Shown here one piece after another: positions 28,885 through 52,715 of a DNA stretch of 64,000 nucleotides. The stretch covers positions 62,001 to 126,000 of the forward strand of contig NZ_JAQWXX010000073.1 in NCBI RefSeq assembly GCF_029254265.1. Reading direction: 5' to 3'. Source of the stretch: Algoriphagus sp. GTDB lineage: Bacteria > Bacteroidota > Bacteroidia > Cytophagales > Cyclobacteriaceae. Under the pieces are notes generated by a model. It was not told the DNA's origin. It saw only the letters and a program-made list of their open reading frames with translations, and ran no database searches. The translations under genes were made by a program, and so were the position numbers. Every line of letters begins with the position of its first letter. Position 1 is the stretch's first letter.

Positions 28885-29010
28885 TAGTTTAAGATAGCTT
28901 CGCAGATATTTTCAAGATAGTCTAAGACAGATAGCCTACCCCCTGACTTACATTAGACAATTGTGAATTATATCTTTCCGAAGACCTATTTACACCGAAG
29001 GTATATACAC
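28885..29010. repeat. TATCT..CGAAG repeat variant, left flank of the four-helix-bundle gene
   Basis: On the minus strand, 28885-28935 reads as TATCT units with TCTTAGAC and GCGAAGC. From about 28970 the plus strand reads TATCTTTCCGAAGACC, then TATTTACACCGAAGG. These are the same units of about 15 bases as in the main family but with TATCT in place of TATTTC, in two orientations. The second block overlaps the last codons of the adjacent gene. Confidence 0.65.
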
Positions 29011-29647: not shown

Positions 29648-30838
29648 ATGGAAGTGAAGCGGAATATTGTGCACATGGATCTGGATTCCTATTTCGTGTC
29701 GGTGGAGCGGCTGTTTGATAGCCGGTTGAATGGAAAGCCTATCCTGATTGGGGGTTCGGGTGATCGAGGTGTCGTGGCATCTTGCAGTTACGAAGCCCGG
29801 AAATTCGGTGTGCACTCGGCCATGCCCATGCGGACGGCGCGGCAGCTTTGCCCCGAGGCACTGATCATCCGGGGTGACTTCGAGAAGTACAGCCAAAAAT
29901 CCCACGAAGTCACCGAGATCATCCGAGAGGAAGTCCCGCTTTTCGAGAAGTCATCCATTGATGAATTCTACATCGATATGACGGGAATGGATCGGTTTTT
30001 TGGTTGCTTTAAACTTTCCCAGCAGATCCGAGAGCGTATCATCAAGGAAACTGGACTCCCTATTTCCTTAGGACTCTCTGCTAATAAAACCGTCTCCAAA
30101 GTAGCTACCGGCGAGGCTAAACCAAATAATGCCAAGCAGATTCTTCTGGGCGAAGAAAAGCCTTTTCTTGCGCCTCTTTCCGTTCGCAAAATCCCGATGA
30201 TCGGTGAAAAAACCTCCCAGACACTTTATAATATGGGGGTGAAAAAAGTGCTAACCTTGCAGCAGATGCCCGCCGAACTCCTACAGGCAACCTTCGGAAA
30301 AAATGGTACGATGATCTGGGAAAAAGCAAACGGAATCGACACCTCGCCCGTTACGCCCTACTCCGAGGCCAAGTCCATCTCGACGGAAAACACCTTCGAG
30401 CAGGACACCATCGACGTGCGCATGCTGGAGGCAACACTCGTGGCGATGTGCGAGCAACTCACCGGCAAGCTGCGTCTGAACGGCCAACTCACCGCCTGTG
30501 TGAGTGTGAAGATCCGATACTCGGACTTTGATACCCATACGACACAGCAGCGCATCCCCTACTCTTCGGCTGATCATACGCTAATTCCGCTGGTCAAGGA
30601 GCTCTTTCGTAAGCTCTACAACCGACGCATGCTGATCCGGCTCATCGGCGTGCGCTTCAGTTCCCTCGTCTATGGCAACTATCAAATCAGCCTCTTCGAA
30701 GACACGCAGGAGCAGATCAACCTCTATCAGGCACTGGACAAAATCAATGGGAAATTTGGTGAAAAAAGCGTCTGCAGAGCGGTGGGGATGAGTGTCGGCA
30801 GACGACGGTTTAATCCGTTTAATGGGATGGCGGTGTGA
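29648..30838 (+). CDS. dinB: Y-family DNA polymerase (Pol IV type)
   Basis: This 396-residue translesion polymerase carries the catalytic carboxylates in HMDLDSYFVSVE (Asp11, Asp13) and SSIDEFYIDMTG, the fingers segment PMRTARQLCP, an HhH region (RKIPMIGEKTSQTLYNMGVKK) and a little-finger domain. Active-site residues are intact, so it should be an active polymerase and not an ImuB-type scaffold. No C-terminal clamp-binding motif is obvious. The gene is notably GC-rich (36 of 60 bases in 30361-30420 by hand count) relative to its neighbours, hinting at transfer. A diverged copy of its last 13 codons occurs 3.2 kb downstream at 34051-34098. Confidence 0.95.
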   Translation: MEVKRNIVHMDLDSYFVSVERLFDSRLNGKPILIGGSGDRGVVASCSYEARKFGVHSAMPMRTARQLCPEALIIRGDFEKYSQKSHEVTEIIREEVPLFEKSSIDEFYIDMTGMDRFFGCFKLSQQIRERIIKETGLPISLGLSANKTVSKVATGEAKPNNAKQILLGEEKPFLAPLSVRKIPMIGEKTSQTLYNMGVKKVLTLQQMPAELLQATFGKNGTMIWEKANGIDTSPVTPYSEAKSISTENTFEQDTIDVRMLEATLVAMCEQLTGKLRLNGQLTACVSVKIRYSDFDTHTTQQRIPYSSADHTLIPLVKELFRKLYNRRMLIRLIGVRFSSLVYGNYQISLFEDTQEQINLYQALDKINGKFGEKSVCRAVGMSVGRRRFNPFNGMAV

Positions 30839-30885
30839 TGGAATTTAAAATGAAGGAATTTAAAATTAGACTGAATTGTAAGCAT

Positions 30886-31926
30886 CTAATTTCCCTCAAA
30901 CCCAAATGGAATCACCTTCTCGGGAACTTGTCCCTTGAGCGGATAGCGGTATACCTCAAATGACTTTTTTCCTTTTCTTCCTTCATACACATAGCCATCA
31001 TCAATGACCATTGGAAAAAAGTAAAGATTGAGTAGCGGTCGAAGTTGATTGTCAGCTGTGATTTGATTAAGTGTATAAACACGCTCAGCATCTTCCAAAC
31101 CAGACTCCCAAGAGAGCAGATACACTTCACCTGCCTCATGATCAAAGTACATCTTCATCTCCGTATTTTCACTGGCGATAGGCACCTTGCTCCTTTGCAT
31201 ATCCCCACTTTTATCCAGTCTGATCAGTGTCTTGTGTGTGGAAGCCCAGATATAAGTTGTTCCATTTTTATAGCCATTATCACTAGAAAATGTCTCATCG
31301 GACTTCCCTACTAATTTCCCATAGGGCTGGAATATGACAGTCGTATCCTCCTTGGAGAGAAAGCCATAGTCAAAAGGCGGCCTTTCCTTAAAGTCATAAC
31401 CCATATGACGCCGGCTCGGGTTGATAAACTTTTTCTTCGGCCGATCAATTAAAAAGAGCTGCACACCTTCCGTATCTTCATTTCGGATATAATCAAAGCC
31501 GACAATGTACTCTGGGTTCATAAATGTACCTGGCGTATTAATCCCATGCTTGGGTCCATTGTAAAACTCGTAAGCCTCTTCGACTACCAATTCCTTTTCC
31601 TTCACCTTGATCATTATCGCATAGCTTACATCCTCAGGACTGAAAATAGAATCATTCACCTTTACAAAAGACTGAGCCGCATCAATCTTCATATCATCGA
31701 CGATCAGGTTGGACTTATCCAAAAGATACATGTGCCGCTTCATCGGTTTATTATTTGACGCATAGATAAGCACCTTATACTCGCCCATGGGTAGGTACGA
31801 GGTCAACACGCAGTTCTCACAAGCATAGACCAGCTCGGGTTTTGCTTCTTGAGAAAAAAGAGTCGGTGTACTCAAGAAATTAATCCAGAATAAACTCAGC
31901 AGAATTCTTTGGCGAAAGCGATACAT
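30886..31926 (-). CDS. Exported propeller-like protein of the peptide/DUF4221 cassette
   Basis: From the ATG at 31926 the protein is 346 residues (an upstream ATG at 31950 would add eight). A signal peptide covers about 1-26 (TLFSQ). The mature part begins with a CENC pair and continues with repeated beta segments (GKLVGKSDETFSS, YIWASTHKTLIRLDKSGDM, DDGYVYEGRKGKKSFEVYRY) like the blades of a beta-propeller. I cannot assign a named family, though it resembles Bacteroidota 6-bladed propeller lipoproteins of DUF4221/BF3164 type. It is the last gene of a four-gene minus-strand operon and overlaps the CGLC lipoprotein gene by 47 bases. Confidence 0.72.
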   Translation of the reverse strand: MYRFRQRILLSLFWINFLSTPTLFSQEAKPELVYACENCVLTSYLPMGEYKVLIYASNNKPMKRHMYLLDKSNLIVDDMKIDAAQSFVKVNDSIFSPEDVSYAIMIKVKEKELVVEEAYEFYNGPKHGINTPGTFMNPEYIVGFDYIRNEDTEGVQLFLIDRPKKKFINPSRRHMGYDFKERPPFDYGFLSKEDTTVIFQPYGKLVGKSDETFSSDNGYKNGTTYIWASTHKTLIRLDKSGDMQRSKVPIASENTEMKMYFDHEAGEVYLLSWESGLEDAERVYTLNQITADNQLRPLLNLYFFPMVIDDGYVYEGRKGKKSFEVYRYPLKGQVPEKVIPFGFEGN

Positions 31927-32344
31927 AGCGATACTCTTTTTTTGAAACATCTATAATAATTGGACTAAAGGCATTCAGGTCATAAGATTTTGACCTACTG
32001 TTTTCGTCGATAATAAGTTGAAGATTTTTCTTTTGTAATAACTTTTTAGCCTTGTCCAGTCGATCTTTAGCTACTTGATTACCAGATAAAATGACCGAAA
32101 TAAGTTTTTCAGTTTTTTCCAAGTCTTCAAGTACCTGATCTACACAGAGACCGCAGCTGTCAAGGGGAAGAAGCAGTACCTCATCATTTTGAAGATCAGC
32201 TTCAATTGCTTTCAGATAGTCTTGAAAATCATTCTGGTAAGAATAAACCTCCATGCCCCTATCCGAACACGAACTAATTACCAGCAGCATACAGAAACTA
32301 CTTATCTTCCAAAACGAATAATCCAAAAACCATCTGATCGTCAT
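31880..32344 (-). CDS. Lipoprotein with CGLC motif, possibly thioredoxin-like
   Basis: The ATG at 32344 is preferred to an upstream GTG because it gives a lipoprotein signal (LVISSC) at the expected place; the protein is then 154 residues. A CGLC motif in LLPLDSCGLCVDQV, followed by a helix and an NLQLIIDENSRS strand, suggests a thioredoxin-like fold with a redox-active Cys pair. This family is not one I can name with certainty. It overlaps the end of the DUF4221 gene by 47 bases and the start of the propeller-like gene by 47 bases. Its Cys pair could act on the Cys-rich peptide encoded first in this operon (inference). Confidence 0.68.
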   Translation of the reverse strand: MTIRWFLDYSFWKISSFCMLLVISSCSDRGMEVYSYQNDFQDYLKAIEADLQNDEVLLLPLDSCGLCVDQVLEDLEKTEKLISVILSGNQVAKDRLDKAKKLLQKKNLQLIIDENSRSKSYDLNAFSPIIIDVSKKEYRYVSLSPKNSAEFILD

Positions 32345-33455
32345 TTTCTCTTGAGTTTTGATAAATAAATAAGCCCTCTTCACTTACAAATGAAAACAGG
32401 GGATTGAATCGATTAGCATCCAGTGTATATGTCCCTTTTGGATCTAACTCTTCATCCAAAATAAATATCTTCCAGTCCGCATCAAATGCTGTATTTTTCT
32501 CCCCGTCTGATCTTCGGAGTTCCTGACTTTCTTTTCCAAATCGATAATAGACCTTGCGGAAAGGGTCATAAGTCAACTGCTGAAACCAAGCCGAGGAAAT
32601 ATAATGGTTGACGAACTGCTGCATATCATCTTTTCGATCAATTCCTTCATTCGTAAATCGCTCCCATTCTGGGTAGTGATGGTAGATGACTGTATCCACT
32701 CCGAGTTGGTATTCATAAATCCCAGGATCAGCAGGAAAGGTTACCAAAAATGTCCCTTGTGGGGTTGGGGTAAGATTGGGCTCACGTAAAACATCAAAGT
32801 AATTATCTTCTCGATACATTTGTGGATAGGCTCCAAACTCATCCACCACTTCATCCTTAACTGGATCATAAACCATGAATTTATTCCGCTCATAGTAGGG
32901 CTTCTTCTTCACGTTTAAGTCCGGATATACAGGTAAAATCCAAACCGAATCTAAAAAAACCGGCCACTGACCCAGATAGGAATAAGAGACAGGAAACATC
33001 TCCACCCCTTTGGAATCCCTTATTGTCTTTCGGTAAGAGTTGATCAATTTCCCTTCTCTATTCAGCACTTTAAATCGTAGGGCGCGGTCTTGTATGGTCA
33101 CAATACTGTCCTCCGAAAACAGGTGAATGATATCCAAATCAGCATCAACAGCACTTGGTCCATCCTCGGCAAAAAGTAAGTGCTTAATCTCGTAACCAGA
33201 TTCCAATGGGATAAAGTCCAGCGAAACACTTTGCCTGTTGAATCCCAACAAATAGGGCACATTATTCTGCTCAATCAGTTGGAAATAATCATAAAAAGGC
33301 AAGGAAAGTGAATCAATCAAAATGACTTTTGATTTCGAATTAATCAAGGTTTTTTCATCTTCAAACCGATGAGTCAGTTCCTTTTGAATGGAAGCATTTT
33401 CAGTATGCTGAGTACATCCTGCAAGCAAAAAAATACTTAACCGAAGAATTTTCAT
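32298..33455 (-). CDS. DUF4221-family lipoprotein
   Basis: From the ATG at 33455 (residues MKILRL) the protein is 385 residues with a lipobox LLAGC at about 9-13. A TTG 69 bases upstream would add a non-signal stretch and was rejected. The sequence has the DUF4221 pattern of an early VILIDSLSLPFYDYFQL strand pair, LLGFNRQSVSLDFI and LFAEDGPSAV, then repeated beta blades. A second family member is at 53466-54632. DUF4221 proteins are Bacteroidota lipoproteins of predicted propeller fold and unknown role, often near NVEALA-type peptides. The gene follows the small Cys-rich peptide gene, with a stem-loop between them. Confidence 0.82.
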   Translation of the reverse strand: MKILRLSIFLLAGCTQHTENASIQKELTHRFEDEKTLINSKSKVILIDSLSLPFYDYFQLIEQNNVPYLLGFNRQSVSLDFIPLESGYEIKHLLFAEDGPSAVDADLDIIHLFSEDSIVTIQDRALRFKVLNREGKLINSYRKTIRDSKGVEMFPVSYSYLGQWPVFLDSVWILPVYPDLNVKKKPYYERNKFMVYDPVKDEVVDEFGAYPQMYREDNYFDVLREPNLTPTPQGTFLVTFPADPGIYEYQLGVDTVIYHHYPEWERFTNEGIDRKDDMQQFVNHYISSAWFQQLTYDPFRKVYYRFGKESQELRRSDGEKNTAFDADWKIFILDEELDPKGTYTLDANRFNPLFSFVSEEGLFIYQNSRENDDQMVFGLFVLEDK

Positions 33456-33473
33456 TTGAATTAAATTAAGGTT

Positions 33474-33495
33474 AGCGGCCTTAAAAAAGGCCGCT
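33474..33495. other. Strong stem-loop between peptide gene and DUF4221 gene
   Basis: AGCGGCCTT (33474-33482) and AAGGCCGCT (33487-33495) form a perfect 9-base GC-rich stem with a four-base loop. There is no long T-run after it on the minus strand, so it may be a leaky terminator or an RNA-processing/stability element leaving the peptide gene more strongly expressed than the genes behind it. Confidence 0.6.
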
Positions 33496-33504
33496 TTAAA
33501 ACAA

Positions 33505-33765
33505 TCAATCAACAAGGGCATCAATAGCGGCAGCGGTAGTAACTATTGTTGCTGCCAAAGTAGCTACATCTTTTAAATCCTTCCATAAACAAATTTTCTT
33601 TCCAGGGCAACCCTTACCAGTTTGCTTGCACTTATCTGCCTGGCTTATCGCGCAAAATTCTTTTGTAAATTCAGGTGTAGTATCTGTTGCAAAAGTGGGC
33701 TGAATTGAAAATAAGCTTACCACAAAAACTAAACTACTCATCAAAATTGAAATTCTCTTTTTCAT
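33505..33765 (-). CDS. Small exported Cys-rich peptide precursor (NVEALA-like)
   Basis: This 86-residue product has a clear signal peptide (1-27, TFATD). The mature part of about 60 residues contains four Cys (EFCAIS, DKCKQT, KGCPGK, ICLWKD) and a C-terminal Ala/Thr-rich helix (ATLAATIVTTAAAI). It resembles the small exported peptides (NVEALA and relatives) that Bacteroidota encode beside DUF4221/propeller lipoprotein genes, but the NVEALA motif itself is absent, so the family link is inference. It is the first gene of the operon. Its function could be signalling, adhesion or competition, none shown here. Confidence 0.7.
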   Translation of the reverse strand: MKKRISILMSSLVFVVSLFSIQPTFATDTTPEFTKEFCAISQADKCKQTGKGCPGKKICLWKDLKDVATLAATIVTTAAAIDALVD

Positions 33766-34050
33766 AGTTATCTAGATAAAAGTTTGTTTACCTACTCATT
33801 CGCTTTTCGGTTTCCGCGGTTACTCCAGGATTTTTAAAGTCGTTTTTCACTTTCACATACCCGACTTAAGATGGATTGCCAACCCATAAAAAGCATTTTT
33901 TTCAACTAAAATATGGTGTGTGTGTGTGTAAAAGTCAAGCAATAGAACTAAAAAATTATAACACCTGGCTAAAAAATAAACAAACTGCAAATACTCGAGT
34001 ATTAAGCGAGATATTCCAGAAATAAAAATCTCCCTATTTCCCTGTTAAAT
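33766..34050. other. Gap without gene; (GT)7 at 33916-33929
   Basis: This A/T-rich stretch holds the leader of the peptide gene and a short GT dinucleotide run. I see no coding frame with plausible composition. It ends at the dinB-tail remnant. Confidence 0.5.
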
Positions 34051-34098
34051 AAGTGTTGAAGACGGCGATTCGATCCTTTTAATGGGTTGGCGGTGTAA
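34051..34098 (+). pseudogene. Diverged remnant of the 3' end of dinB
   Basis: The 13 codons at 34060-34098 read RRRFDPFNGLAV-stop, against RRRFNPFNGMAV-stop at the true dinB end (30838). Differences are mostly third-codon or conservative, and the preceding AGTGTTGA resembles AGTGTCGGC, with a one-base gap. Orientation equals dinB. The remnant lies directly before the LysR/dab region, with the peptide cassette between the two copies. Confidence 0.8.
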
Positions 34099-34134
34099 AA
34101 GAAAAAATTTACAATTTTCCTTAAATCCGAATTT

Positions 34135-35028
34135 CTAATAACTCAAGTACCAATCAAAATACTTCTGGGTCAGGCTTTGTTTCTCATTTCGGATGTAATC
34201 CAAAAAGGCCTGACTGACTACTGAGAGTTTTTTACCTTTCAACCAAACCAACCTCCAGTCGGACTTCACAGGTAATCCTAGAGCGGGAATAATATGCAAT
34301 TCATGACTTAGCAATTCATTTCTCACCCCAATCAATGGCATAATGGAATCACCGATCCCGGCAATTACCGCCTGTTTAACGGCCTCATTGGATGTCAATT
34401 CTATTCTTTTTCTGTGGACTTCTTCCTGAGATTTAAGGTATTGTTCCATGGCAATTCGAGTGGCGGATCCCTCTTCTCGGAAAATTAAAGGTCGTTTCTC
34501 ATCACGAACAGGGCTATTTCCCATGAGATACAGTTTATTCTCAAGGAGTATTTCCTGCTCCACTTCGATTTTATCAGTCAAAACCGAAACCAAGGCAAAA
34601 TCAATTTCATTTTTTTTCAAGCTTTCAATGACCAAACTTTTATTGGTCACATCCAGGATCAGATCGACTCCTCTATATTTTTCCAAAAAACCAGTCAGAA
34701 AATAAGGGATCACATATTTCCCGGTAGAAGCAGAAGATATACTCAGTTTTCCAGTCAAGAGCCCTTTAAAAGCCTGGGATTTATAATTGATGTTTTCAAG
34801 TTCCTCGATTACGCGATCCGCAATTACAGCGACCTCCTTGCCAAATTCGGTAACATATAGCTGTCTTCCGATCACTTCTGTCAAAGGCAAATCAAACTGA
34901 TCCTGAAAATTTTTCAATTGAATAGAAACCGCAGGCTGAGTCATAAACAGCTCCTCTGAAGCCCGGGTAATACTTTGAGTTTGGACCACCTTGAGGAATA
35001 TTTTCAGTTGGTGCAGCGTGTAATTCAT
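34135..35028 (-). CDS. LysR-family regulator divergent from dabBA
   Basis: This 297-residue regulator has an N-terminal winged helix-turn-helix (YTLHQLKIFLKVVQTQSITRASEELFMTQPAVSIQLKNF, split over about residues 3-41) and a LysR substrate-binding domain (KLSISSASTGKYVIPYFL onward). It is divergent from dabB-dabA across 126 bases, the normal place for a regulator controlling the neighbouring operon and itself. CbbR-like regulators control carbon-concentrating genes in autotrophs, so this one may sense a metabolite linked to inorganic carbon. That is inference from position. The ATG at 35028 fits the family N-terminus exactly. Confidence 0.9.
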   Translation of the reverse strand: MNYTLHQLKIFLKVVQTQSITRASEELFMTQPAVSIQLKNFQDQFDLPLTEVIGRQLYVTEFGKEVAVIADRVIEELENINYKSQAFKGLLTGKLSISSASTGKYVIPYFLTGFLEKYRGVDLILDVTNKSLVIESLKKNEIDFALVSVLTDKIEVEQEILLENKLYLMGNSPVRDEKRPLIFREEGSATRIAMEQYLKSQEEVHRKRIELTSNEAVKQAVIAGIGDSIMPLIGVRNELLSHELHIIPALGLPVKSDWRLVWLKGKKLSVVSQAFLDYIRNEKQSLTQKYFDWYLSY

Positions 35029-35154
35029 AAAAAATGTTTATGCTTTTGATATTAAATATAAATAAAAACTTATTAATCCAAAGCCTCAAATTTGCAGGAC
35101 AATTATTTATGAATTAAAAAACATAATTCTTTCTGACCATTCAAAATCCACTTA

Positions 35155-36813
35155 ATGAATCTAACAAGTAATCCACTGACATTTCTTATGCTCCTAGCCC
35201 CGGCAGGCTATGCACTCACAGCAGTAATCTCATGGTTTCAACCCGGAATCAGACCTAGAGCAACTCGAATGGCCAGCAAATTCAGCGCTGGTTTCGGTAT
35301 CCTCGCTTCTCTTGGAATTACAATCCTCTTTATTTCCAAAGGAAGCATGGAATCTCCGCTATGGGGATTTGCGGAACTGGGATTTAGTCTGAGACTAGAC
35401 ATTCTCAGCCTGATTATTTACAGCATGATTTCCCTACTTGGTTATATCATCCTGCATTTCAGCATCAACTACTTGGATGGAGATTCTAGACAAGGGGTAT
35501 TTCTGGGAAGATTAGCGGCAACACTTGCGACAGTACAAATCTTGGTAATCGCTGGAAACCTAGCCTTACTGGGATTCACCTGGGTTTTGACGAGCATTTT
35601 TCTCCATCGCCTATTGGTTTTTTACCCAGAGAGGCCACTAGCAAAAATCGCTGCAAGGAAGAAATTTATCGTAGCCAGAATGTCTGACATCACATTATTC
35701 TTTGCATTTGGCCTCCTGTATTTTCTTACCGGTACAGGAAATCTAGGATCAATCTTTTCTCATGTCACAACTGAATATGCTCAAAACCCTTCAGTCTTAA
35801 TCGAGCTAGCAGCTTGTTTATTAGCTCTCGCAGCGATCTTGAAGTCGGCTCAATTCCCTACTCATGGCTGGCTGATTGAAGTAATGGAAACCCCCACTCC
35901 TGTTTCAGCCCTACTCCATGCCGGTTTATTGAATTCAGGTCCATTTCTTATCATTCGAATGGCCCAAATCATGGAAGGTAGCACTTATGCACCTTTGATT
36001 TTACTCGGCATCGGAGGATTAACAGCTATCATAGCGACTATTGCCTACCTCACTCAAACATCCATCAAAACAGCCCTAGGATACTCCAGTGTGGGTCATA
36101 TGGGATTCAGTTTAATGATGAGTGGATTAGGACTTTATTCTGCTGCTTTGCTTCACTTGGTTTCTCATTCCTTTTACAAAGCCCATGCTTTCCTTTCTTC
36201 CGGAACTGCGGTTGAGGGAATTCAAAAGGGAAAAATGCAATCCAAAAAATATTCCCCAAAACCTTGGCAATTGGGTCTTGGATTTATCCTAAGTCTAGCG
36301 CTTCTCGGAGGAATTGGTTTTGCTTTTGGAATAGATCCAAAACAAGATTGGGGACTGCTATTTTTAGGTGGAATTATGATTCTGGGAGTGTTTCAACTCC
36401 TATCCTCAGCTCTGGCAAATTCTCAAAACCCTTCCATATTCCCGCTTGTCGCCGCACTAAGTGCTGGTTTGGTAAGTATTTTCTTTGTACTGGAATCATT
36501 CACACACCAACTTATTGTTTCCCAAATTCCAGCTTTTGCTGAGCCAAGCTCTGGTAGAATAACGCTAGCCTCAGGCATAATTCTGATCTCTGGACTTGTT
36601 GTACTTGGTCAATTGCTGACACTTTCCAAGCCCAATTCCCCAGTTCGTTTAGCTTGGGCCATTCACTTTCGAAATGGACTCTATGCCAATGCGATTTTTG
36701 ACCGAATAGTAGGCGGACTAAGAGTGCCAAAATCTGCAAATCTGCTGAAAAATGAGTCCAAATGGTCAGAAAACGAATCAAAAATGAAATCCCTCGAAGA
36801 TTTCTTGGCCTAA
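35155..36813 (+). CDS. dabB: DabB-type proton-conducting subunit (NuoL/ND5-like) of the bicarbonate uptake system
   Basis: This 552-residue integral membrane protein has 13-14 predicted hydrophobic segments and the proton-antiporter core of the NuoL/MrpA family (PF00361). SAQFPTHGWLIEVMETPTPVSALLHAG spans about 238-264, with the conserved Lys at KSAQFPTHGW, followed by HLVSHSFYKAHAFLSSG. In DAC systems DabB supplies the proton gradient that energises DabA to hydrate CO2 to bicarbonate. It is much shorter than NuoL and lacks the long lateral helix. It precedes dabA by 28 bases in one operon, with a divergent LysR gene. Confidence 0.93.
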   Translation: MNLTSNPLTFLMLLAPAGYALTAVISWFQPGIRPRATRMASKFSAGFGILASLGITILFISKGSMESPLWGFAELGFSLRLDILSLIIYSMISLLGYIILHFSINYLDGDSRQGVFLGRLAATLATVQILVIAGNLALLGFTWVLTSIFLHRLLVFYPERPLAKIAARKKFIVARMSDITLFFAFGLLYFLTGTGNLGSIFSHVTTEYAQNPSVLIELAACLLALAAILKSAQFPTHGWLIEVMETPTPVSALLHAGLLNSGPFLIIRMAQIMEGSTYAPLILLGIGGLTAIIATIAYLTQTSIKTALGYSSVGHMGFSLMMSGLGLYSAALLHLVSHSFYKAHAFLSSGTAVEGIQKGKMQSKKYSPKPWQLGLGFILSLALLGGIGFAFGIDPKQDWGLLFLGGIMILGVFQLLSSALANSQNPSIFPLVAALSAGLVSIFFVLESFTHQLIVSQIPAFAEPSSGRITLASGIILISGLVVLGQLLTLSKPNSPVRLAWAIHFRNGLYANAIFDRIVGGLRVPKSANLLKNESKWSENESKMKSLEDFLA

Positions 36814-36841
36814 AACTTCTCTCCTAGCTAACCAAAAAAAT

Positions 36842-39280
36842 ATGAATTCTACCATCTCAAAAACATCTGATAGTCTTCCACCTCAACTTGAAGAAATTCT
36901 TGCGCAAGCTTGTAAAAAAATCGCACCGCTTTGGCCGCTAAAGAATTTCGTCGCGGTGAATCCTTTTCTAGGACTAACGGAGATGAAATTTGAAACTGCC
37001 GCAAATTACCTAGCTCAAGTCGGAGGAATCAGTTTGACCTTACCTAAGGATTTTTACCTGCAAAAAATCAATGAAGGACATATCCGAGCTGAAGATCTAG
37101 ACTTAAATGGGCTTTCCATAGACCCAAAGAATACGGAAAACACCAAACTGCCAGAATTGGAAAATTTCAGCGACGTAGCATCTCTGAAAACGGGCCACGA
37201 CTGGAATCATTTCTTGATCAACAGAATCACTGCCTGGGCTTCGGCCTATTTTGATCAAGGTCAGGCCAACTGGATTGCTGCAGATCAAAATGCTGGAATT
37301 TTTAAATCTTGGAAAACAGAAGCTTCTCTGGATCTTAGCCCTGAGATCGCTGGGTTGAAAAATTTCAGAAAACAGGTAAAATCCTTTTCAGATCATCCCA
37401 ATAAAGCGCTGCAAGAAGCCTTACAAATTTTGGATATCCCTGAGAAAAGCCTTCCAACCTATCTCCATCGTCTTTTGCTGAAAGTCGGAGGCTGGTCTGG
37501 ATATATTTCCCAATTGGACTGGGAAAATGAGCTTTATGGAAAAAAAGGAGGGAAACTTTCTGAATTCTTGACCATCCTCGTATGCTGGGAGGCAAGCATG
37601 AAACTCTCCCTAAGTACTCCAGCTCTTTCCCTACTTTGGGAAAAAGCCAAGCGCCAGCATCAAAAATGCGAACCTGAGGTCTTGGTTCCTCGACAATTAG
37701 CAGAAAGGCTGAAACTTCAGGAATCATTTGACCGAGCGATGCAGCAGAATTTAATTTCCAAATTCAGATCTGCCTCTCATTTATCAACGGCTTCTGTCAG
37801 CAGGCCTACAGCTCAGGCGGTTTTTTGTATTGATGTAAGATCCGAAGTCTATAGAAGAAACCTGGAAGCTTCAGACTTGAAAATAGAAACCTTTGGCTTT
37901 GCCGGTTTCTTTGGCTTCCCTATCCAGTACCTTCCCTTCGGTTATGAACACAGCGAGTCCTTGTGTCCTGTGCTGATTCCTGCAGGAATCAAAATTTCAG
38001 AAACTGCTACGCAAGCTGGACAAGAACAAAGCCTTTTAAAAAGTAAAATCCGGAAATTTCAATTGGGCAAGCTTTGGAAAAGCTTCAAATCCGGAGCAAT
38101 TACCTGCTTTAGTTTTGTCAGTCCTTTGGGGATTTTCTACCTGTTCAGACTTTTCGCTTCAAGCCTTAGAATGTCAAAACTCGGCCTTCAGGCAGAAAAA
38201 TTAAAAGGGAAATCTGCAACTAAGTCTAGTACCAAAATCAGCATAAACGAGGAAGCGAAGAACGAAATTGACTTTGGTATTCCTCTCGATCAACAGGTGA
38301 AAATGGCACAAAATGCTTTAAAAGCCATGTCTCTGCCTGATCAGCTCGCTAAATTTGTGCTGATCGTAGGACATGGATCTCATTCGGTCAATAATCCACA
38401 TGCCTCAGGCTTAGATTGTGGAGCCTGCGGAGGTCATTCGGGAGAAATAAATTCCCAAGTAGCTGCTGCTGTTTTAAATAATCCTCAGGTCCGGGAAAAC
38501 TTAGAAAAAATTGGCATCCATATTCCTAAGGATACCGTCTTCTTAGCAGCTCTTCACAATACGGTGACGGACCAGGTAAGCATTCTAAATCCAGAATTAG
38601 TTTCCGAAAATCAAAAAGAGGAATTTCAATCTTTGCAAGCTTCTTTGGAGCAAGCAGGTAAACTTACCAGATTGGAAAGAGGACTTCGATTGAATTCCGA
38701 CAAAAATTCGGATCAAGGTCTAATCTCCAGAAGCGTAGACTGGTCACAAGTAAGACCAGAATGGGGATTGGCTGGATGCTCGGCATTTGTCATTGCTCCC
38801 AGAGAAAAAACCAAATCCCTGGATCTGGAAGGAAAATCCTTCCTTCATTCCTACACTTGGGAAAAAGATCCAGGTTTCCAGATTTTGGAGGTTATCATGA
38901 CCGCACCGATGGTAGTTACCAGCTGGATTAACCTGCAATATTTCGCCTCCACGGTAGACAATACGCATCTAGGTGCAGGAAATAAAACCCTTCACAATGT
39001 CACCGGAGGTATTGGGGTATTGGAGGGATTCTCAGGGGACTTACGAGTTGGATTGCCAATGCAGTCCATCCATGATGGAGAAAAATATCAGCACGAGCCA
39101 GCTAGGTTAAATGTAATTATTGATGCGCCTCTGGAAGCCATCAATGAAATTCTGGCCAAACACCAAAACATCAGAAACCTATTCGACAATCAATGGATTT
39201 TCCTTCTGGCCTTGGATGATTCCGGAACCATTTCCCACAAATACGAAGGAAATATGGAATGGGCTGAATTGGAGAATTAA
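36842..39280 (+). CDS. dabA: DabA (DUF2309), zinc-dependent catalytic subunit of inorganic carbon uptake
   Basis: This 812-residue protein belongs to DUF2309 (PF10070). The beta-carbonic-anhydrase-like zinc ligands match the known Halothiobacillus DabA pattern: Cys329 and Asp331 in CIDVRSE, His511 in GHGSH and Cys526 in LDCGACGG; the His-to-Cys spacing of 15 is the same. DabA with DabB hydrates CO2 vectorially to trap bicarbonate at the inner membrane. In a heterotroph it probably feeds biotin-dependent or PEP carboxylation. The gene follows dabB with a 28-base gap and is closed by a terminator at 39294-39321. Confidence 0.95.
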   Translation: MNSTISKTSDSLPPQLEEILAQACKKIAPLWPLKNFVAVNPFLGLTEMKFETAANYLAQVGGISLTLPKDFYLQKINEGHIRAEDLDLNGLSIDPKNTENTKLPELENFSDVASLKTGHDWNHFLINRITAWASAYFDQGQANWIAADQNAGIFKSWKTEASLDLSPEIAGLKNFRKQVKSFSDHPNKALQEALQILDIPEKSLPTYLHRLLLKVGGWSGYISQLDWENELYGKKGGKLSEFLTILVCWEASMKLSLSTPALSLLWEKAKRQHQKCEPEVLVPRQLAERLKLQESFDRAMQQNLISKFRSASHLSTASVSRPTAQAVFCIDVRSEVYRRNLEASDLKIETFGFAGFFGFPIQYLPFGYEHSESLCPVLIPAGIKISETATQAGQEQSLLKSKIRKFQLGKLWKSFKSGAITCFSFVSPLGIFYLFRLFASSLRMSKLGLQAEKLKGKSATKSSTKISINEEAKNEIDFGIPLDQQVKMAQNALKAMSLPDQLAKFVLIVGHGSHSVNNPHASGLDCGACGGHSGEINSQVAAAVLNNPQVRENLEKIGIHIPKDTVFLAALHNTVTDQVSILNPELVSENQKEEFQSLQASLEQAGKLTRLERGLRLNSDKNSDQGLISRSVDWSQVRPEWGLAGCSAFVIAPREKTKSLDLEGKSFLHSYTWEKDPGFQILEVIMTAPMVVTSWINLQYFASTVDNTHLGAGNKTLHNVTGGIGVLEGFSGDLRVGLPMQSIHDGEKYQHEPARLNVIIDAPLEAINEILAKHQNIRNLFDNQWIFLLALDDSGTISHKYEGNMEWAELEN

Positions 39281-46864: not shown

Positions 46865-49828
46865 ATGACCATGTTCACCAACTGCCACTCCCACTTCAGT
46901 TTCAAATACGGTACGATGTCCATCGAGGCATTGGTGGCAGAGGCTAAAGCCAAGCGGATCGATGCATTTGCGCTCACGGATATCAACTGCACCGCTGGTA
47001 TTTTTCCGTTTATCCGAGCTGCGCAAAAGGTGGGGATTCACCCCGTGGTGGGAATTGATTTTCGAAATGGCAGTACACAATCCTATGTCGGCTTGGCACA
47101 AAATCAGGAAGGCTTCTACGAACTCAACAGCCATCTCTCAGATCACTTGGTTCATAAAAAGCCATTTGCGAAGCATGCGCCGGCTTTTGCCCATAGTTTC
47201 ATTATCTATCCGCTTCCGGAGAAGTACTTTGCCCTGCGAGAAAATGAATTTGTCGGTGTGCATCCCCACCAGCTCAATCGACTGATTTCCTCCCCTTGGT
47301 TTCGCTTCAAAGACAAACTCGTCCTGCTCCAAGCGGTAAATTTCTCTTCCAAAATCGAATTCAATGCGCATCGGCTTTTGCGCAGTATCGATCTGAATAC
47401 GCTCCTGAGCAAGCTGCCAATCGAGGAACAGGCAGATCCTAGCGATCAGTTTTATAGCTACGCCGATATGGTCGCACGCTGCGAAAATCACAGCTACCTG
47501 ATTGCCAATGCACAAAAAATTCTGGAGCAATGTCAGTTTTCCTTTTATTTCCAAGCAGTCAAAAACCGTCGGGATATTCTAGGTTCGGACTGGGAGGACT
47601 TTGACTACCTCCGACAAGAAACTTTCAAAGGTGCCATCAATCGCTATCCGAATCTCAGCCCGACGATCAGTCAGCGAATCGAAAAGGAGCTTGAACTCAT
47701 CCAACAAAAGTCCTTTACCTCCTACTTTCTGATCAATTATGACATTGTGACTTTTGCACAAGAGCGCAATTTTTATCATGTCGGCAGAGGCTCCGGTGCC
47801 AATAGTATCGTAGCCTATTGCCTCGGAATCACCGATGTGGATCCGATTGAGCTGGACTTATACTTCGAGCGCTTTATCAATCTCTACCGGGAGAATCCTC
47901 CTGACTTCGATATAGACTTCAGTTGGACGGATCGGGATGCAGTGACGGAGTATATTTTCCAAAAATACAATCAGTCCGGTCAGGAGCATGTTGCCTTGCT
48001 TGGGTCTTATAGCACATTCCAGTCCAACTCCATGATCCGTGAACTCGGGAAGGTTTTTGGGCTACCTAAAAGCGAGATCGAATCGCTGATCCACTATGCC
48101 AGCAAGCCGGACTATGCAGCTGATCAATATGGTAAACTCATTCTGAAGTACAGTCAAGTCCTCCACGACATGCCCTCGCATCTGACGATTCATGCCTGCG
48201 GAATTCTCATTTCGCATAAACCGATTCACTATTACACGGCCACAGAAATGCCCCCGAAGGGCTTTCCACTTGCACATATTGACATGCATGTGGCCGAGGA
48301 TATTGGGCTGCACAAGTTTGACATCCTGAGTCAGCGCGGATTGGGTCATATCAAATCTGCCATTCAGATCATCTATGAAAATCAAGGGATCAAAGTCGAT
48401 ATCCGTCAAGTGGAGCAATTCAAAAAAGATCCAAAGATCAAAGCGCATCTACGGGATGGGCATACGATCGGAGCATTCTATGTGGAGTCGCCCGCCATGC
48501 GTATGCTCCTGGCCAAGCTAAAAGCAGACGAATACCTCGAGCTCGTGGCTGCCAGTTCGATCATCCGTCCAGGAGTAGCTCGCTCAGGGATGATGCGAGA
48601 ATACATTCTTCGCTACATCGATCCGGAGCGTCGTAAAATGGCCCATCCGGTCATGGCCGAGATCATGCCCGAAACCTACGGAATCATGGTTTATCAGGAG
48701 GACGTGATCAAGGTCGCTCACTACTTCGCCGGACTAAGCTTGGGTGAAGCAGATGTGCTACGCCGGGGCATGAGTGGAAAATCCCGCTCCAAGGATGAGT
48801 TTGAGCGGGTGAAAGATCGCTTTTTTGGCAACTGCAAAGAAAAGGGTCATCCGGATAAGCTGGCTGCAGAAGTCTGGTATCAGATCGAAAGCTTTGCGGG
48901 CTACTCCTTTGCCAAAGGCCACTCGGCGTCCTTTGCTGTGGAAAGCTATCAGAGTTTATACCTGAAGGCCTATTTCCCGCTGGAGTTTATGGTTGGCGTG
49001 ATCAATAACTTCGGAGGCTTTTACCATACTGAGTTTTACATCCACGAACTCAGAATGAACGGAGCCGATATCCAAGCTCCGCACATCAATGAAAGCGATT
49101 ATCTGACTCGGATCACTGGTAAGACCGTTTACTTGGGCTTTATCCATCTAAAGTATCTGGAGAAATCCAGTGTGGAAAAGATTCTGAGCGATCGCCGTGA
49201 AAACGGACCCTTCGCAGGATTGGTAGACTTCACCGCACGAGCAGAGATCAGCTTGGAGCAGTTGCTAATTCTGATTCGGATTGGTTGCTTTCGCTTCACA
49301 GGAAAGACCAAGCAAGAATTACTCTGGGAGGCACATTTTATTCTCAACAAGCGGAAAGTCATTCCCGGTCCGACGGATCTTTTCAAAGGCGATAGCGGAT
49401 TCAACTTCCGGCAGCCGACTGTCCCGAAACTGGAAGAAATCGATATTCGACAAGAGATCGTCGATCAGATCGATATCTTGGAATTTCCGCTGAATTCACC
49501 TTTTCATCTGGTCAAAGATCAAAGCATCCAAGGCATCCGAGCTCAGGATATGAAGAGCTATCTAGGCAAGACCGTGCAGATCGTCGGCTATCTCGTCACG
49601 GTCAAATACACGCGTACGATCAAAGGCGATGTGATGAACTTTGGGACTTTCGTAGATAGGGAAGGACACTGGATCGACACGGTGCATTTCCCGCCTGTGG
49701 TCAAAAAGTATCCTTTCAAGGGAAGAGCGATCTACCTGATCGAAGGCAAAGTCACTGCTGAGTTCGACTTCTACAGTATCGAAGTGACCAAATGCGAGCG
49801 GTTGGAATATTGGAATGCGGGTGACTAG
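46865..49828 (+). CDS. dnaE: DnaE-type DNA polymerase (short, probable error-prone form)
   Basis: This 987-residue C-family polymerase has an N-terminal PHP domain (NCHSHFSFKYG, about 6-16, ALTDINCT, about 37-44), the polymerase core with the catalytic PDFDIDFSWTDRD (about 355-367), and a C-terminal OB-fold (GKTVQIVGYLVTVKYTRTIKG, about 908-928). It is shorter than replicative DnaE (about 1160 or more), lacking a long tau-binding tail, like DnaE2-type error-prone enzymes. GC is high (36 of 60 bases in 48541-48600). It shares its promoter module with dinB. A diverged copy of its 3' end is at 51498-51569. Confidence 0.95.
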   Translation: MTMFTNCHSHFSFKYGTMSIEALVAEAKAKRIDAFALTDINCTAGIFPFIRAAQKVGIHPVVGIDFRNGSTQSYVGLAQNQEGFYELNSHLSDHLVHKKPFAKHAPAFAHSFIIYPLPEKYFALRENEFVGVHPHQLNRLISSPWFRFKDKLVLLQAVNFSSKIEFNAHRLLRSIDLNTLLSKLPIEEQADPSDQFYSYADMVARCENHSYLIANAQKILEQCQFSFYFQAVKNRRDILGSDWEDFDYLRQETFKGAINRYPNLSPTISQRIEKELELIQQKSFTSYFLINYDIVTFAQERNFYHVGRGSGANSIVAYCLGITDVDPIELDLYFERFINLYRENPPDFDIDFSWTDRDAVTEYIFQKYNQSGQEHVALLGSYSTFQSNSMIRELGKVFGLPKSEIESLIHYASKPDYAADQYGKLILKYSQVLHDMPSHLTIHACGILISHKPIHYYTATEMPPKGFPLAHIDMHVAEDIGLHKFDILSQRGLGHIKSAIQIIYENQGIKVDIRQVEQFKKDPKIKAHLRDGHTIGAFYVESPAMRMLLAKLKADEYLELVAASSIIRPGVARSGMMREYILRYIDPERRKMAHPVMAEIMPETYGIMVYQEDVIKVAHYFAGLSLGEADVLRRGMSGKSRSKDEFERVKDRFFGNCKEKGHPDKLAAEVWYQIESFAGYSFAKGHSASFAVESYQSLYLKAYFPLEFMVGVINNFGGFYHTEFYIHELRMNGADIQAPHINESDYLTRITGKTVYLGFIHLKYLEKSSVEKILSDRRENGPFAGLVDFTARAEISLEQLLILIRIGCFRFTGKTKQELLWEAHFILNKRKVIPGPTDLFKGDSGFNFRQPTVPKLEEIDIRQEIVDQIDILEFPLNSPFHLVKDQSIQGIRAQDMKSYLGKTVQIVGYLVTVKYTRTIKGDVMNFGTFVDREGHWIDTVHFPPVVKKYPFKGRAIYLIEGKVTAEFDFYSIEVTKCERLEYWNAGD

Positions 49829-49927: not shown

Positions 49928-51274
49928 CTAAAGACTTGGATCTGTGAAATTTATAAGATTCTTATGAATCTCACCATCCTTCATGATGATCAAAAATTTC
50001 TCTTTTGGTTGTGCAATCAGGCTAAGGTCATCTAAAGGATTACCGTCCACTAAAATCAAGTCTGCCAATGCCCCTTCTTCCACTACTCCCAATTTTCCAG
50101 GATAAGGACTTCTCAAACCAGACAGCTGGAGCAATTCCGCATTATCATGGGTAACGATCTTGAGGATTTCGGCATTGGAAAACCACTTTTGAAGTCGGAG
50201 AATATATTCATTCTGCAATGCATTAAGTTCAGGTTCAAATAGGAAGTCCGTGCCCCAAGCCAGTTTCACTTTGAGTTTTTTGGCCATTGGCCATACTTTC
50301 GCCTGTCCTTCGATCACAGGCTTACGTTTCTCCCGACGCAGGGGATCCATATCTGGAGTATCTTCTACCAGATTCTGAGTACTCAGCCAAACTTTTTTCC
50401 TTGCCATCAACCGAAGCGTTTTTTCATCCAGCATCTGTCCATGTTCCACACATTTCACTCCTGCCTCAATGGCCCTTTGGATTGCCCTTGGCGTGTAGGC
50501 ATGTACCATCACATAAGTACCCCAATCTTCCGCAGCCTCCACAGCAGCCCTCATTTCATCAAAAGTATATTGGGTTACATCCACTGGATCATATGCTGAG
50601 GAAGTTCCTCCTCCTGCCATCAATTTGATCTGACTGGCTCCAAAACGAAGGTTCTCACGAACAGCTGTCAATACCTCATCCCTCCCATCTGCGATAAAAG
50701 TTGCATTGTACCTTTCCGCCCTGGAAGGTTCACCAAAAAATCTCCTGGACTTTTCTTCAGGTGTCCTAAAATCCCCGTGTCCTGCTGTCTGACTGATAGT
50801 CGCTCCGGATGGCCAAATCCTCGGACCTTCAAACTTCCCCGCATCTATTGCCATTTTCAACGGAAAAATAGGCCCTCCTGCATCTCTGACAGATGTAAAA
50901 CCTCTTTGTAACATCTCCTCTGCACCTTTGGAGGTTTTCTCAACAATAACTCCCTCCGACAACATCGGCGACATCATTTCCTTCATCGTGAGTGCGCCAA
51001 AAGCCATGTGTACATGCACATCAATTAAACCGGGCATCAAAGTTTTACCGTTTCCTTGGATCCTTTTTGCACCGGGCATTATTTCAATATTTGTTGGGTT
51101 GATTGATTTGATTTTGTTTCCCTCTACCAAAACATTGACTACAGGAGTTAGCACTTCGGACTTTCCATCAAACACTCGCACATTTTCAAATACAACCAGA
51201 CTCAAATCCTGACTTTTTGATATGCCTTGGATCAAAAAAAATAATGCTCCTAAGATTAAAATGCTCTTTTTCAT
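49928..51274 (-). CDS. Exported amidohydrolase (imidazolonepropionase/Xaa-Pro dipeptidase-like)
   Basis: This 448-residue protein has a signal peptide (1-22) and an amidohydrolase TIM barrel: LMPGLIDVHVHM (metal-binding His pair, about 76-87), a His in VMVHAYTP, EHGQMLDE and LAWGTDFLFEP (catalytic Asp). It resembles the imidazolonepropionase-like/prolidase subset common in exported Bacteroidota enzymes. The substrate is unknown. Its C-terminal codons form a perfect hairpin with adjacent DNA (49922-49939). It lies between dnaE and the diverged second copy of the dnaE 3' end. Confidence 0.9.
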   Translation of the reverse strand: MKKSILILGALFFLIQGISKSQDLSLVVFENVRVFDGKSEVLTPVVNVLVEGNKIKSINPTNIEIMPGAKRIQGNGKTLMPGLIDVHVHMAFGALTMKEMMSPMLSEGVIVEKTSKGAEEMLQRGFTSVRDAGGPIFPLKMAIDAGKFEGPRIWPSGATISQTAGHGDFRTPEEKSRRFFGEPSRAERYNATFIADGRDEVLTAVRENLRFGASQIKLMAGGGTSSAYDPVDVTQYTFDEMRAAVEAAEDWGTYVMVHAYTPRAIQRAIEAGVKCVEHGQMLDEKTLRLMARKKVWLSTQNLVEDTPDMDPLRREKRKPVIEGQAKVWPMAKKLKVKLAWGTDFLFEPELNALQNEYILRLQKWFSNAEILKIVTHDNAELLQLSGLRSPYPGKLGVVEEGALADLILVDGNPLDDLSLIAQPKEKFLIIMKDGEIHKNLINFTDPSL

Positions 51275-51497
51275 CTGTTTATTCTTTTTTTATTTGCCTA
51301 ATAGCCTGTCCCGAACCCATTTTGGGAGAATCCCGCATCTAACATAATCATCCCAGTGAGTGACCCTTGAGTCACGCTCGATTTCATAAGAATACTTTGT
51401 ACCCAACTTCAATTTAAGTCAAGTTAAAAAATAAATTTTTCACCTGTTTGAAAATATAATTAACCTTTCTGCCTCGCTAATTGATTTGAGCCTACCA
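51275..51497. other. Leader of the amidohydrolase gene, no further gene
   Basis: The stretch contains a small inverted repeat GTGACCCTTGAGTCAC near 51359-51374 and a 17-base sequence (51375-51391) identical to 1112-1128 in the leader of another exported protein. I see no coding frame. Confidence 0.5.
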
Positions 51498-51569
51498 ATC
51501 AAAAGCAAAGTCTCTCAGGATTTCGACTTCTACAGTGTTGAAACTGGAATATTGGAATGGAGGGGAGTA
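51498..51569 (+). pseudogene. Diverged remnant of the 3' end of dnaE
   Basis: The translation I-K-S-K-V-S-Q-D-F-D-F-Y-S-V-E at about 51499-51543 parallels I-E-G-K-V-T-A-E-F-D-F-Y-S-I-E near the end of DnaE. GGAATATTGGAATG (51546-51559) repeats the last dnaE codons, and the copy carries a deletion of about 18 bases between these blocks. Orientation equals dnaE. Positions changed are mostly third codon positions, indicating an older or foreign copy. Confidence 0.8.
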
Positions 51570-51792: not shown

Positions 51793-52254
51793 ATGGCAAA
51801 GAAAAATCAAAAAGTCAGCGAGCCTGCAGTTGCTTATCTCCGGACGACCAATCTATCCGTAGGGGATGTGCTTGATATTGCTTCAAGCAGGTTGGAAGAG
51901 CCACTGAGTCGGGTAGAGACCTTTAGAAATGGTCTCGAGAAAAAGTCTTTTGAAAACCTCAAAGAACTATCGGGACTTGATTACAATACCCTAGCCACAG
52001 CTTTGGGCGTTTCCTCTAAAACCCTCCAACGAAAAGAAATTTTTGATACTGCTCAGTCCGAAAAGATCTATGAGTTGGCCGAATTATATACGTTGGGCAT
52101 CAATTATTTTGGTCGAGAAGGATTCAGAAGATGGATGGAGCGACCACTTTTCACGCTTGGCAATCGTGTCCCCCTTGGTCTGATTGATCTATCAGAAGGA
52201 TTGGACCTTCTCAAAACAGAAATCATGCGGTTACAACACGGCATTGCTGTTTGA
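51793..52254 (+). CDS. Antitoxin of Xre/MbcA/ParS family (DUF2384)
   Basis: This 153-residue protein has a helix-turn-helix region (YNTLATALGVSSKTLQRKE, about 60-78) and the C-terminal DUF2384 domain (EKIYELAELYTLG...FGREGFRRWMERPLFTLGNRVPLGLI, split over about 90-135), the usual partner of RES-domain toxins. It neutralises the toxin and probably represses the operon. The toxin gene starts five bases after its stop. Confidence 0.93.
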   Translation: MAKKNQKVSEPAVAYLRTTNLSVGDVLDIASSRLEEPLSRVETFRNGLEKKSFENLKELSGLDYNTLATALGVSSKTLQRKEIFDTAQSEKIYELAELYTLGINYFGREGFRRWMERPLFTLGNRVPLGLIDLSEGLDLLKTEIMRLQHGIAV

Positions 52255-52259
52255 GCTAC

Positions 52260-52715
52260 ATGAAAGTCTATCGAATCGTCTTATCCCAATACTGTGATAC
52301 CAGTGGCGAAGGAGCCAAAATCTATGGAGGCAGATGGAATCTCCCCGGATCTCCTGCTATCTATGCGGGATCGAGTATCTCTTCTTCCTTGCTTGAAAGA
52401 TTGACGATTGATCCCGAATTGTTATCCTCGGAGCGGTATATTAGATATGCGGTGATGGAAATTACTATTCCCAATGAGCTGGTATTTTCACCAAAAATCC
52501 TGAATCTGCCGATAGACTGGAATCATATTCCTCCAGTACGAGCTTCACAAGTGTACGGCAATGAACTTTTAAAATCCGGAATAGCCTGTTTTGCTGTGCC
52601 ATCGGTAGTGGATCCCAGTTCTTTGAATTATGTAATCCATCCACTTTCTGATAAAATTCATCTTTTGGAATTCAAAACCTATCCGCTAGAGATGGATCAG
52701 CGGATTGTCAAGTGA
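52260..52715 (+). CDS. RES-domain toxin
   Basis: The ATG at 52260 is taken (151 residues); a TTG nine bases earlier is a poorer choice. The RES motif set is visible: the Arg in KVYRIV (about 4-6), AKIYGGRWNLPGSPAIY with the Glu/Ser-type RES core (YAGSSISSSLLE) and a late Ser in PSSLNYVIHPL. RES toxins degrade NAD+ by ADP-ribosyl-transfer-like chemistry and cause growth arrest. It forms an operon with the antitoxin upstream. Confidence 0.93.
   Translation: MKVYRIVLSQYCDTSGEGAKIYGGRWNLPGSPAIYAGSSISSSLLERLTIDPELLSSERYIRYAVMEITIPNELVFSPKILNLPIDWNHIPPVRASQVYGNELLKSGIACFAVPSVVDPSSLNYVIHPLSDKIHLLEFKTYPLEMDQRIVK

Follow-up and report, generated by a model that had tools for sequence, protein, structure and literature searches.

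Homology-facilitated illegitimate recombination (HFIR) has been proposed for the immunity arrays of the type VI secretion system (T6SS) in Vibrio cholerae (PMC5361080) and for the swapping of T6SS effectors in Pseudomonas aeruginosa, where the dominant breakpoint is placed at the 3' end of the anchor gene vgrG (PMC11751169). Here we analyzed the 3' end of dinB, the gene for DNA polymerase IV, in a stretch of 64,000 nucleotides (nt) from a genome whose nearest named relatives at dinB are Algoriphagus (G000:C128:62001-126000, hereafter the window). In this stretch, a cassette of four genes stands between the intact dinB gene and a displaced second copy of its tail. Comparison with relatives suggests, with a probability that we put at roughly three in four, that foreign cassettes enter repeatedly at the 3' end of dinB and, in some of these genomes, also at that of dnaE; they would be born by HFIR and would then spread by homologous recombination.

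As the T6SS cases are presented in these two sources, they share with the dinB site a homologous anchor on the 5' side, a non-homologous join (presumed at dinB) on the other side, older material moved downstream, and stepwise arrays with orphan genes. The process at dinB appears to work like HFIR. Unlike the T6SS cases, in which the anchor is described as part of the effector locus, dinB and dnaE are polymerase genes without relation to the cargo that are rebuilt whole with their tails displaced, and these tails appear to serve in later exchange as arms. What is new here is the anchoring in polymerase genes, the arrays with tails as separators and the reuse of tails; the open-access literature searched yielded no account of dinB or dnaE tails bounding cassettes.

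The concept of the minimal mobile element is one without mobility genes. Among the dinB-insert proteins tested, which are a subset of the insert open reading frames (ORFs), no mobility gene was found; the dnaE insert of one relative, L272, has a Y1-type transposase. As defined for Neisseria (PMC3082526), such an element consists of differing whole-gene cassettes at one site across strains, moved by homologous recombination. The dinB site resembles this, since our family map of 81 loci contains varied cassettes at one site in different strains and species. Unlike the element of that definition, which has two conserved flanks, the dinB site has a variable right flank, the same cassette standing before F1, F4 or LysR, and the displaced gene tail takes the place of the second flank. 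Because the right flank is not conserved, the dinB site falls outside the minimal mobile element as strictly defined.

At Rhs and contact-dependent inhibition (CDI) loci, an intact gene is followed by a series of displaced gene 3' ends, and there the 3' ends are the variable cargo, unlike dinB and dnaE, whose 3' end is conserved and whose cargo lies between the tails. Phage e14 in icd replaces the gene end and leaves the old end on the far side, as at dinB, but differs in requiring an integrase and a fixed core. Orphan 3' modules of the Rhs/CDI kind are mentioned in PMC5361080. Hotspots without mobile elements (PMC5635113) and the core defence hotspots of P. aeruginosa (PMC10250203) are similar to the dinB site in their high turnover, in often having no integrase, and in the recombination at flanking core genes that has been proposed for them, whereas displaced tails are not described in the parts of these two papers that are covered here. 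Hotspots of gene turnover without a recognisable mobile element are many, and how cassettes enter and move at them is given there as an open question (PMC5635113, PMC10250203). Displaced tails are readable scars of single entry events that show the direction of insertion, the incoming gene end and the breakpoint, and the entry step thereby becomes countable and comparable across genomes.

The dinB locus of the window

The anchor gene, the cassette and the right flank are arranged as follows (aa, amino acids).

29648..30838, + strand: dinB, DNA polymerase IV, 396 aa, anchor gene, Pfam IMS and IMS_C; tail at 30800-30838
30886..31950, - strand: cassette gene, 354-aa protein ("propeller" as a descriptive name), no family match; homologues at the dinB site of A. 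marinus (L141) and A. hitonicola (L178)
31880..32383, - strand: cassette gene, 167-aa protein with a CGLC motif, no family above cut-off
32298..33524, - strand: cassette gene, DUF4221 protein, PF13970 at 55.1 bits against a cut-off of 23.4
33505..33765, - strand: cassette gene, 86-aa Cys-rich peptide, apparently exported, no family above cut-off
33785..33945, - strand: conserved leader of about 150 nt upstream of the peptide gene, common to several different dinB cassettes
33789..33820, - strand: match to Rfam RF02914 (DUF805b RNA) within the leader, 35.3 bits against a gathering score of 35.6
34058..34103, + strand: remnant, the displaced dinB tail, with its own in-frame stop at 34098 (repeat search, DNA profile, blastn)
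34135-35028, - strand: LysR gene, right of the dinB remnant
35155-36813 and 36842-39280, + strand: dabB and dabA; the LysR and dabBA block (34135..39280) stands directly after dinB in A. boseongensis

A second copy of the final 13 codons of dinB, counting the stop, lies 3.26 kb downstream in the same orientation, at 34060-34098. The top direct repeat by length in the 9-kb stretch pairs 30800-30843 with 34060-34103 (44 nt, 80% identity, spacing 3260). A blastn comparison of the last 180 nt of dinB with the 6 kb downstream gave E 4.6e-7, and the DNA profile of dinB tails, run against 81 loci, scored the remnant at E 0.0012. The preliminary description of the window had reported this same-orientation repeat with four minus-strand genes between the copies; repeat search, blastn, DNA profile and the in-frame stop all confirm the repeat, and all four ORFs are present at 30886-33765. 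The names that it gave to the genes stood in part. DUF4221 is the sole Pfam family above cut-off among the four ORFs, whereas "CGLC lipoprotein" and "propeller" do not come from family matches and serve as descriptive labels only.

Recurrence of displaced dinB tails

The window was compared with 80 named loci, the best among 253 relatives that a scan of genome contigs had turned up, and these 81 loci were searched with profiles of dinB codons 1-132 (head), 133-264 (middle) and 265 to the end (tail). Second tail copies numbered 15 in 12 loci (E 0.0012 or better), all on the plus strand and 0.4-5.1 kb downstream of dinB. All but one of them run to the stop codon (14/15, profile position 397-398); the other, in L170, ends at 393, five positions earlier. 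The head profile found no second copy in the 81 loci and the middle profile no significant one, its two weak matches standing at E 0.06 and 0.85. A local tandem duplication of the gene end, or the decay of a second gene, would also yield a same-strand tail downstream, without any insertion. However, no significant copies of the head or middle accompany the tails, the contents between the copies are unrelated cassettes, and cassette-free relatives have a single gene end joined to the same flank. On the lack of head and middle copies and on these empty sites we rejected duplication or a decayed paralogue, which now seems very improbable.

When the last 60 nt of all 81 genes were used as short queries, 13 of 76 loci gave a match of at least 33 bits downstream on the plus strand, namely the 12 loci above and L199. 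The same queries at three control placements matched in 0 of 76, 1 of 74 and 0 of 74 loci, a total of one match in 224 scans; the need for at least 2 kb of flank had reduced the 81 loci to 76 downstream and to 76, 74 and 74 in the controls. A chance match, which the preliminary description had named as a possible refutation, is rejected by these control placements, and the dinB repeat is real and one case of a recurrent pattern.

Gene tails were also compared across the loci and the whole window (within 6 kb, E 1e-3), where 77 of the 81 dinB genes were kept after those with less than 1 kb of flank were dropped. A tail match was found for 13/77 dinB genes versus 9/1074 other neighbouring ORFs. 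This set of 13 includes L157 (25 nt, 88%) and not L199, while the 13/76 of the short-query scan includes L199 (29 nt, 93%) and not L157 (32.8 bits). Five of the nine matches outside dinB are 16-24 nt long and near the threshold, and two stem from the L141 cassette, in which a second propeller gene brings the overlapping CGLC gene end with it. That leaves F4 in L141 (165 nt, 88%) and the window's dnaE (45 nt, 80%). Random stretches (40 of 20 kb, from four relatives) gave 4 of 471 ORFs with 33 bits or more; all four matches stop short of the gene end, and three of them come with body homology as well. Fisher tests (13/76 versus 1/1073; 6/19 versus 0/471) assume independent loci, use a selected dnaE set and leave out eight of the nine non-dinB matches as short, tandem or dnaE, and their p-values were not relied on. 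On a dinB tree of 71 rows, ten of the 81 loci having been dropped, the remnant label takes 11 changes, at least 7 of them forced by well-supported branches, and its clustering is no stronger than that of shuffled labels.

Direction of insertion and empty sites

The claim that the cassette entered at the 3' end of dinB, restored the gene and pushed the old tail outward is supported, most clearly by L190, L198 and L199. In L198, which has no cassette, the native dinB end and flank correspond to the remnant and right flank of L190 (remnant, 116/123 nt). The dinB body of L190 is closer to L198 (978/1050) than to L199 (932/1050), whereas its dinB end is closer to L199 (53/60) than to L198 (47/60), and L199 carries a cassette related to that of L190, with an F25 gene 95% identical. 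Because the remnant is L198-like and the gene end L199-like, the incoming DNA appears to have brought its own dinB end and to have displaced the resident one. The last 141 nt of L177 match L183 at 134/141, though the body of L177 is closer to L174. In both L190 and L177, the reading frame was kept where the gene end was replaced, which points to an end joined by homology.

Empty sites were found for three insertions: L198 for L190, L276 for the dnaE case described below, and L156 for the window. In L156 (A. boseongensis), dinB is followed after about 35 nt by LysR and dabBA without the cassette, collinear with the remnant and LysR of the window. The preliminary description had proposed just such a relative as its check, with a tail like the remnant; the check agreed with the prediction in gene order, with the qualification that the tail matches the remnant at 28/40 nt. 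On the tail profile the best match is the gene of A. marinus (35/40), ahead of the window's own gene (32/40). Over these 40 nt, sequence alone is insufficient to call the window remnant the older tail, and a displaced native-like tail is what is seen in L190. The dab block is itself patchy at the dinB site, occurring in 2/81 loci within 9.5 kb downstream.

The window insertion is not private. Since A. marinus holds the same cassette with the same right junction, the insertion is either shared or has passed from one to the other. The A. marinus remnant is nearest to the window's gene (48/50), just as the window remnant is nearest to the A. marinus gene, and the two tails look exchanged, which over so few bases is suggestive only.

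Cassettes, right flanks and mosaic tails

In the family map, cassette A (DUF4160 and DUF2442) stands before F1 in L155 and before F4 in L177 and L182, and L178 has the right end of cassette A too, in front of a tail. Cassette B, the window type, is present in the window, A. marinus and A. hitonicola, each time with a different right neighbour. Arrays occur in L178, with three tails, and in L170, with two. The insert of L159 is a HipA-type gene with a helix-turn-helix partner. Some cassettes are more alike than the dinB bodies of their hosts, as in cassette A of L177 and L182 (92.2% versus 84.5%) and the LysR-dab block of the window and L156 (82-86% versus 78%); cassette B of the window and L178 is the opposite case (65-78% versus 78%).

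Four species have cassette A joined to its tail at the same point, give or take a few bases. Between L177 and L178, the cassette A remnants are identical at 74/75 nt towards the cassette and at 77/88 towards the host. L155 and L170 carry different cassettes, yet the host-side part of their remnants is the same at 84/84 nt. Such mosaic tails are expected if recombination occurs inside the tails.

Proposed mechanism and alternatives

We propose that incoming DNA with a related polymerase gene and a cassette would recombine homologously inside the resident gene, so that the donor gene end and the cassette enter and leave the polymerase gene intact. On its other side, the incoming DNA would be joined, with little or no homology, inside the last stretch of the resident gene, and the resident tail would be left as a same-strand remnant before the native neighbour; this would be the birth of the cassette by HFIR. 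Flanked from then on by polymerase-gene sequence, the tail being its portable arm, the cassette would be open to ordinary homologous recombination regardless of its right flank, and could in this way spread, be exchanged, pile up into arrays or disappear. The recurrence of the tails, their position and orientation, the empty sites, the foreign gene end beside a native-like remnant and the mosaic remnants can be read from the aligned loci. We infer the recombination steps, a dependence on RecA and a route of DNA uptake.

Some phages integrate at attachment sites in protein genes, and the dinB cassettes might likewise be small elements mobilised in trans by a tyrosine recombinase, with the 3' ends of dinB and dnaE as attachment sites and the remnant as a half-site. 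The position at a gene 3' end, the restored gene, the direct repeat on the far side and the constancy of one cassette's junction in several species fit such site-specific integration. However, the remnant starts differ between cassettes, both at dnaE and at dinB, where they lie at profile positions 223-358 as local-alignment edges; no fixed crossover core was found, the dinB junctions being spread from about 245 to 350 on the tail profile, and a fixed attachment site was rejected because junction positions vary between cassettes. The L190 remnant follows the empty-site relative in both of its halves, which a direct join fits better than a core exchange, and one insert, at dnaE, ends inside a CRISPR array. 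The preliminary description had seen no integrase or transposase, and none was recognised among the dinB-insert proteins given to Pfam; an integrase gene was likewise missing from the dinB-insert and dnaE-insert proteins scanned, a part of the insert ORFs, although an integrase acting in trans could still serve. We regard site-specific integration as improbable.

Integration of the Campbell type, in which circles bearing a cassette and a polymerase-gene tail are taken in through a single homologous crossover within that tail, would give the same anatomy, arrays included, and would fit the mosaic remnants of cassette A. It predicts that the left part of the remnant follows the incoming element, whereas in L190 this part slightly favours the native relative (57/61, against 56/61 for its own gene end). 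With a four-base difference visible in the alignment, this is a weak indication. We consider this route unlikely, if somewhat less so than site-specific integration.

Several points weigh against entry by HFIR at polymerase-gene ends. The dinB tree is a proxy for the host tree, and the loci are related, so that the counts are not those of independent events. Several cassettes at the dinB site show no tail (LysR-dab, DUF4143 ATPase). A non-polymerase neighbour also has a duplicated tail: the convergent F4 gene of L141, near 18982 on the minus strand, has its 165-nt tail copy about 3.2 kb downstream on its own strand, beside the dinB remnant, and because of this copy the displaced-tail process appears not to be confined to polymerase genes. 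A single cassette A junction was reported at 223, 229, 239 and 248, so that the true spread of remnant starts is smaller, about 245-350. All second dinB copies begin in the last 175 nt or so of 1191, which a random join would not predict; we assume that longer direct repeats delete themselves. Junctions differ between cassettes, which would fit a right end joined with little or no homology; the illegitimate join is our deduction. Finally, comEC and dprA are present in the window's genome, yet they say little because Escherichia coli has both too.

A second site at dnaE

The second tail-bounded cassette of the window was found because a dnaE tail match appeared in the control with other genes.

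46865..49828, + strand: dnaE, DNA polymerase III alpha type, 987 aa, anchor of the second tail-bounded cassette
49928..51274, - strand: amidohydrolase-like gene, 448 aa, between the dnaE tails, named from its sequence without a family search
51492..51569, + strand: displaced, decayed dnaE tail; in L276 the native dnaE end is collinear with it and precedes the Xre gene
51793-52254 and 52251-52715 (51793..52715), + strand: genes for an Xre-type antitoxin and a RES-type toxin, right flank of the dnaE site

L276 is the matching empty site, in which the dnaE end passes straight into the spacer and the Xre gene; the homologous toxin pair of L272 matches Pfam Xre-like-HTH, Xre_MbcA_ParS_C and RES. 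The last 90 aa of dnaE gave a match in 69/72 genus genomes, with a linked second tail in four of them (G073, G025, G018, G013). A dnaE DNA profile found 8 linked second tails in 6/19 dnaE-bearing loci (one each in the window, L273, L274 and L277, two each in L272 and L275); it was searched on the window and 20 stretches chosen to include the second matches of the protein search, and 6/19 is not a rate. The second tails of the window and of G024 were detected with the DNA profile only. Two stretches outside the profile were searched and left uncounted: L284, with a tail-like piece away from dnaE, and L283, where a contig end makes the piece either a gene end or a remnant. The 12-kb stretch of L284 (G028:C53) contains no dnaE gene, and its dnaE-like tail stands before an Xre-RES pair, as if it had been carried along with the pair; identity of the stretch to L273 and the window is 85-87%.

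The insert of L275 (G013:C61, 6904-14365) has Cas9, Cas1, Cas2 and at least 23 CRISPR repeats between dnaE and the first displaced tail, and the dnaE tail starts 11 nt past the last CRISPR repeat, inside the array. In outgroups, a dnaE relative starts 17-390 nt after dinB in eight loci (L212-L215, L217-L220; in L219 it is split in two ORFs). In the Algoriphagus loci where it was seen, dnaE starts 6.3-8.4 kb from dinB, and in the window 16 kb. Because outgroups keep dnaE directly after dinB, the two genes were probably once neighbours.

In L272, a short palindromic repeat precedes both dnaE tails, and the insert encodes a Y1-type transposase (PF01797) like the REP-associated tyrosine transposases (RAYT; REP, repetitive extragenic palindrome). 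Placement of the cassettes by such REP/RAYT activity would account for both the transposase and the palindromes of this insert. They were noticed in L272 only, and the other left contexts, judged by eye and without a systematic search, lack such a palindrome; we consider REP/RAYT activity very improbable as the general cause.

Possible function of the cargo

A leader of about 150 nt is common to cassettes B, F102 and F46. It occurs in 10/72 genus genomes at E 0.001, and of nine copies at E <1e-18 eight stand at the dinB site and one elsewhere (G093). RNAalifold predicted a weak structure for nine leaders (-10.3 kcal/mol).

The F46 and F102 proteins have a Cys-bounded, Gly/Ala-rich end and are followed by small membrane-like proteins, with signal peptides and membrane spans judged by eye; three distant relatives keep the pairing of an F46/F102-type with a small membrane-like protein. 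No Pfam family was found above cut-off for the F46/F102 or F25/F96 proteins, and an AlphaFold2 model of the F102-type protein from four sequences was too weak to use (mean predicted local distance difference test score, pLDDT, 46.5). From their arrangement, F46 and F102 would be bacteriocin-like proteins and F25 and F96 their immunity proteins, and lone F25 and F96 genes would be orphan immunity genes. The pair may thus represent a possible new bacteriocin-immunity family with orphan partners. Pairs of a lipoprotein-like and a small membrane-like protein were observed in L153, L170, L178, L183 and L190, and in L233, L234 and L237.

More tentatively, and with doubts outweighing confidence, the tail-bounded cassettes may be viewed as an integrase-free counterpart of integrons, in which two polymerase 3' ends would be docking sites, tails would be portable arms, and tail-separated arrays of competition and defence cargo would move between Cyclobacteriaceae species. 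The cargo would comprise toxin-antitoxin pairs, bacteriocin-like pairs and CRISPR-Cas9. Set beside integrons, the repeats between these cassettes are polymerase-gene tails; no search for intI or attC was made. If the idea of portable arms is true, a single past landing in a conserved gene would suffice to make a cassette mobile, without any enzyme encoded by it.

Other features near dinB

SOS operators before the cassettes were considered and rejected. Two motifs, CTAA-N5-TTAG and GGA-N5-TCC, were taken as they are given in PMC8565304. No exact CTAA-N5-TTAG lies in the three regions checked, and one lies elsewhere in the window. With one mismatch, there is one site at 28922, between the S24 gene and dinB, and exact sites within 700 nt upstream of dinB occur in 7/81 loci. 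Of the 23 copies of GGA-N5-TCC in the window, three lie within the regions checked.

Between the S24 repressor gene and dinB, a gene for a four-helix protein of the 23S rRNA-intervening-sequence type lies at 29016-29414 on the minus strand. A gene of this type beside dinB is absent from some of the mapped loci and found in others.

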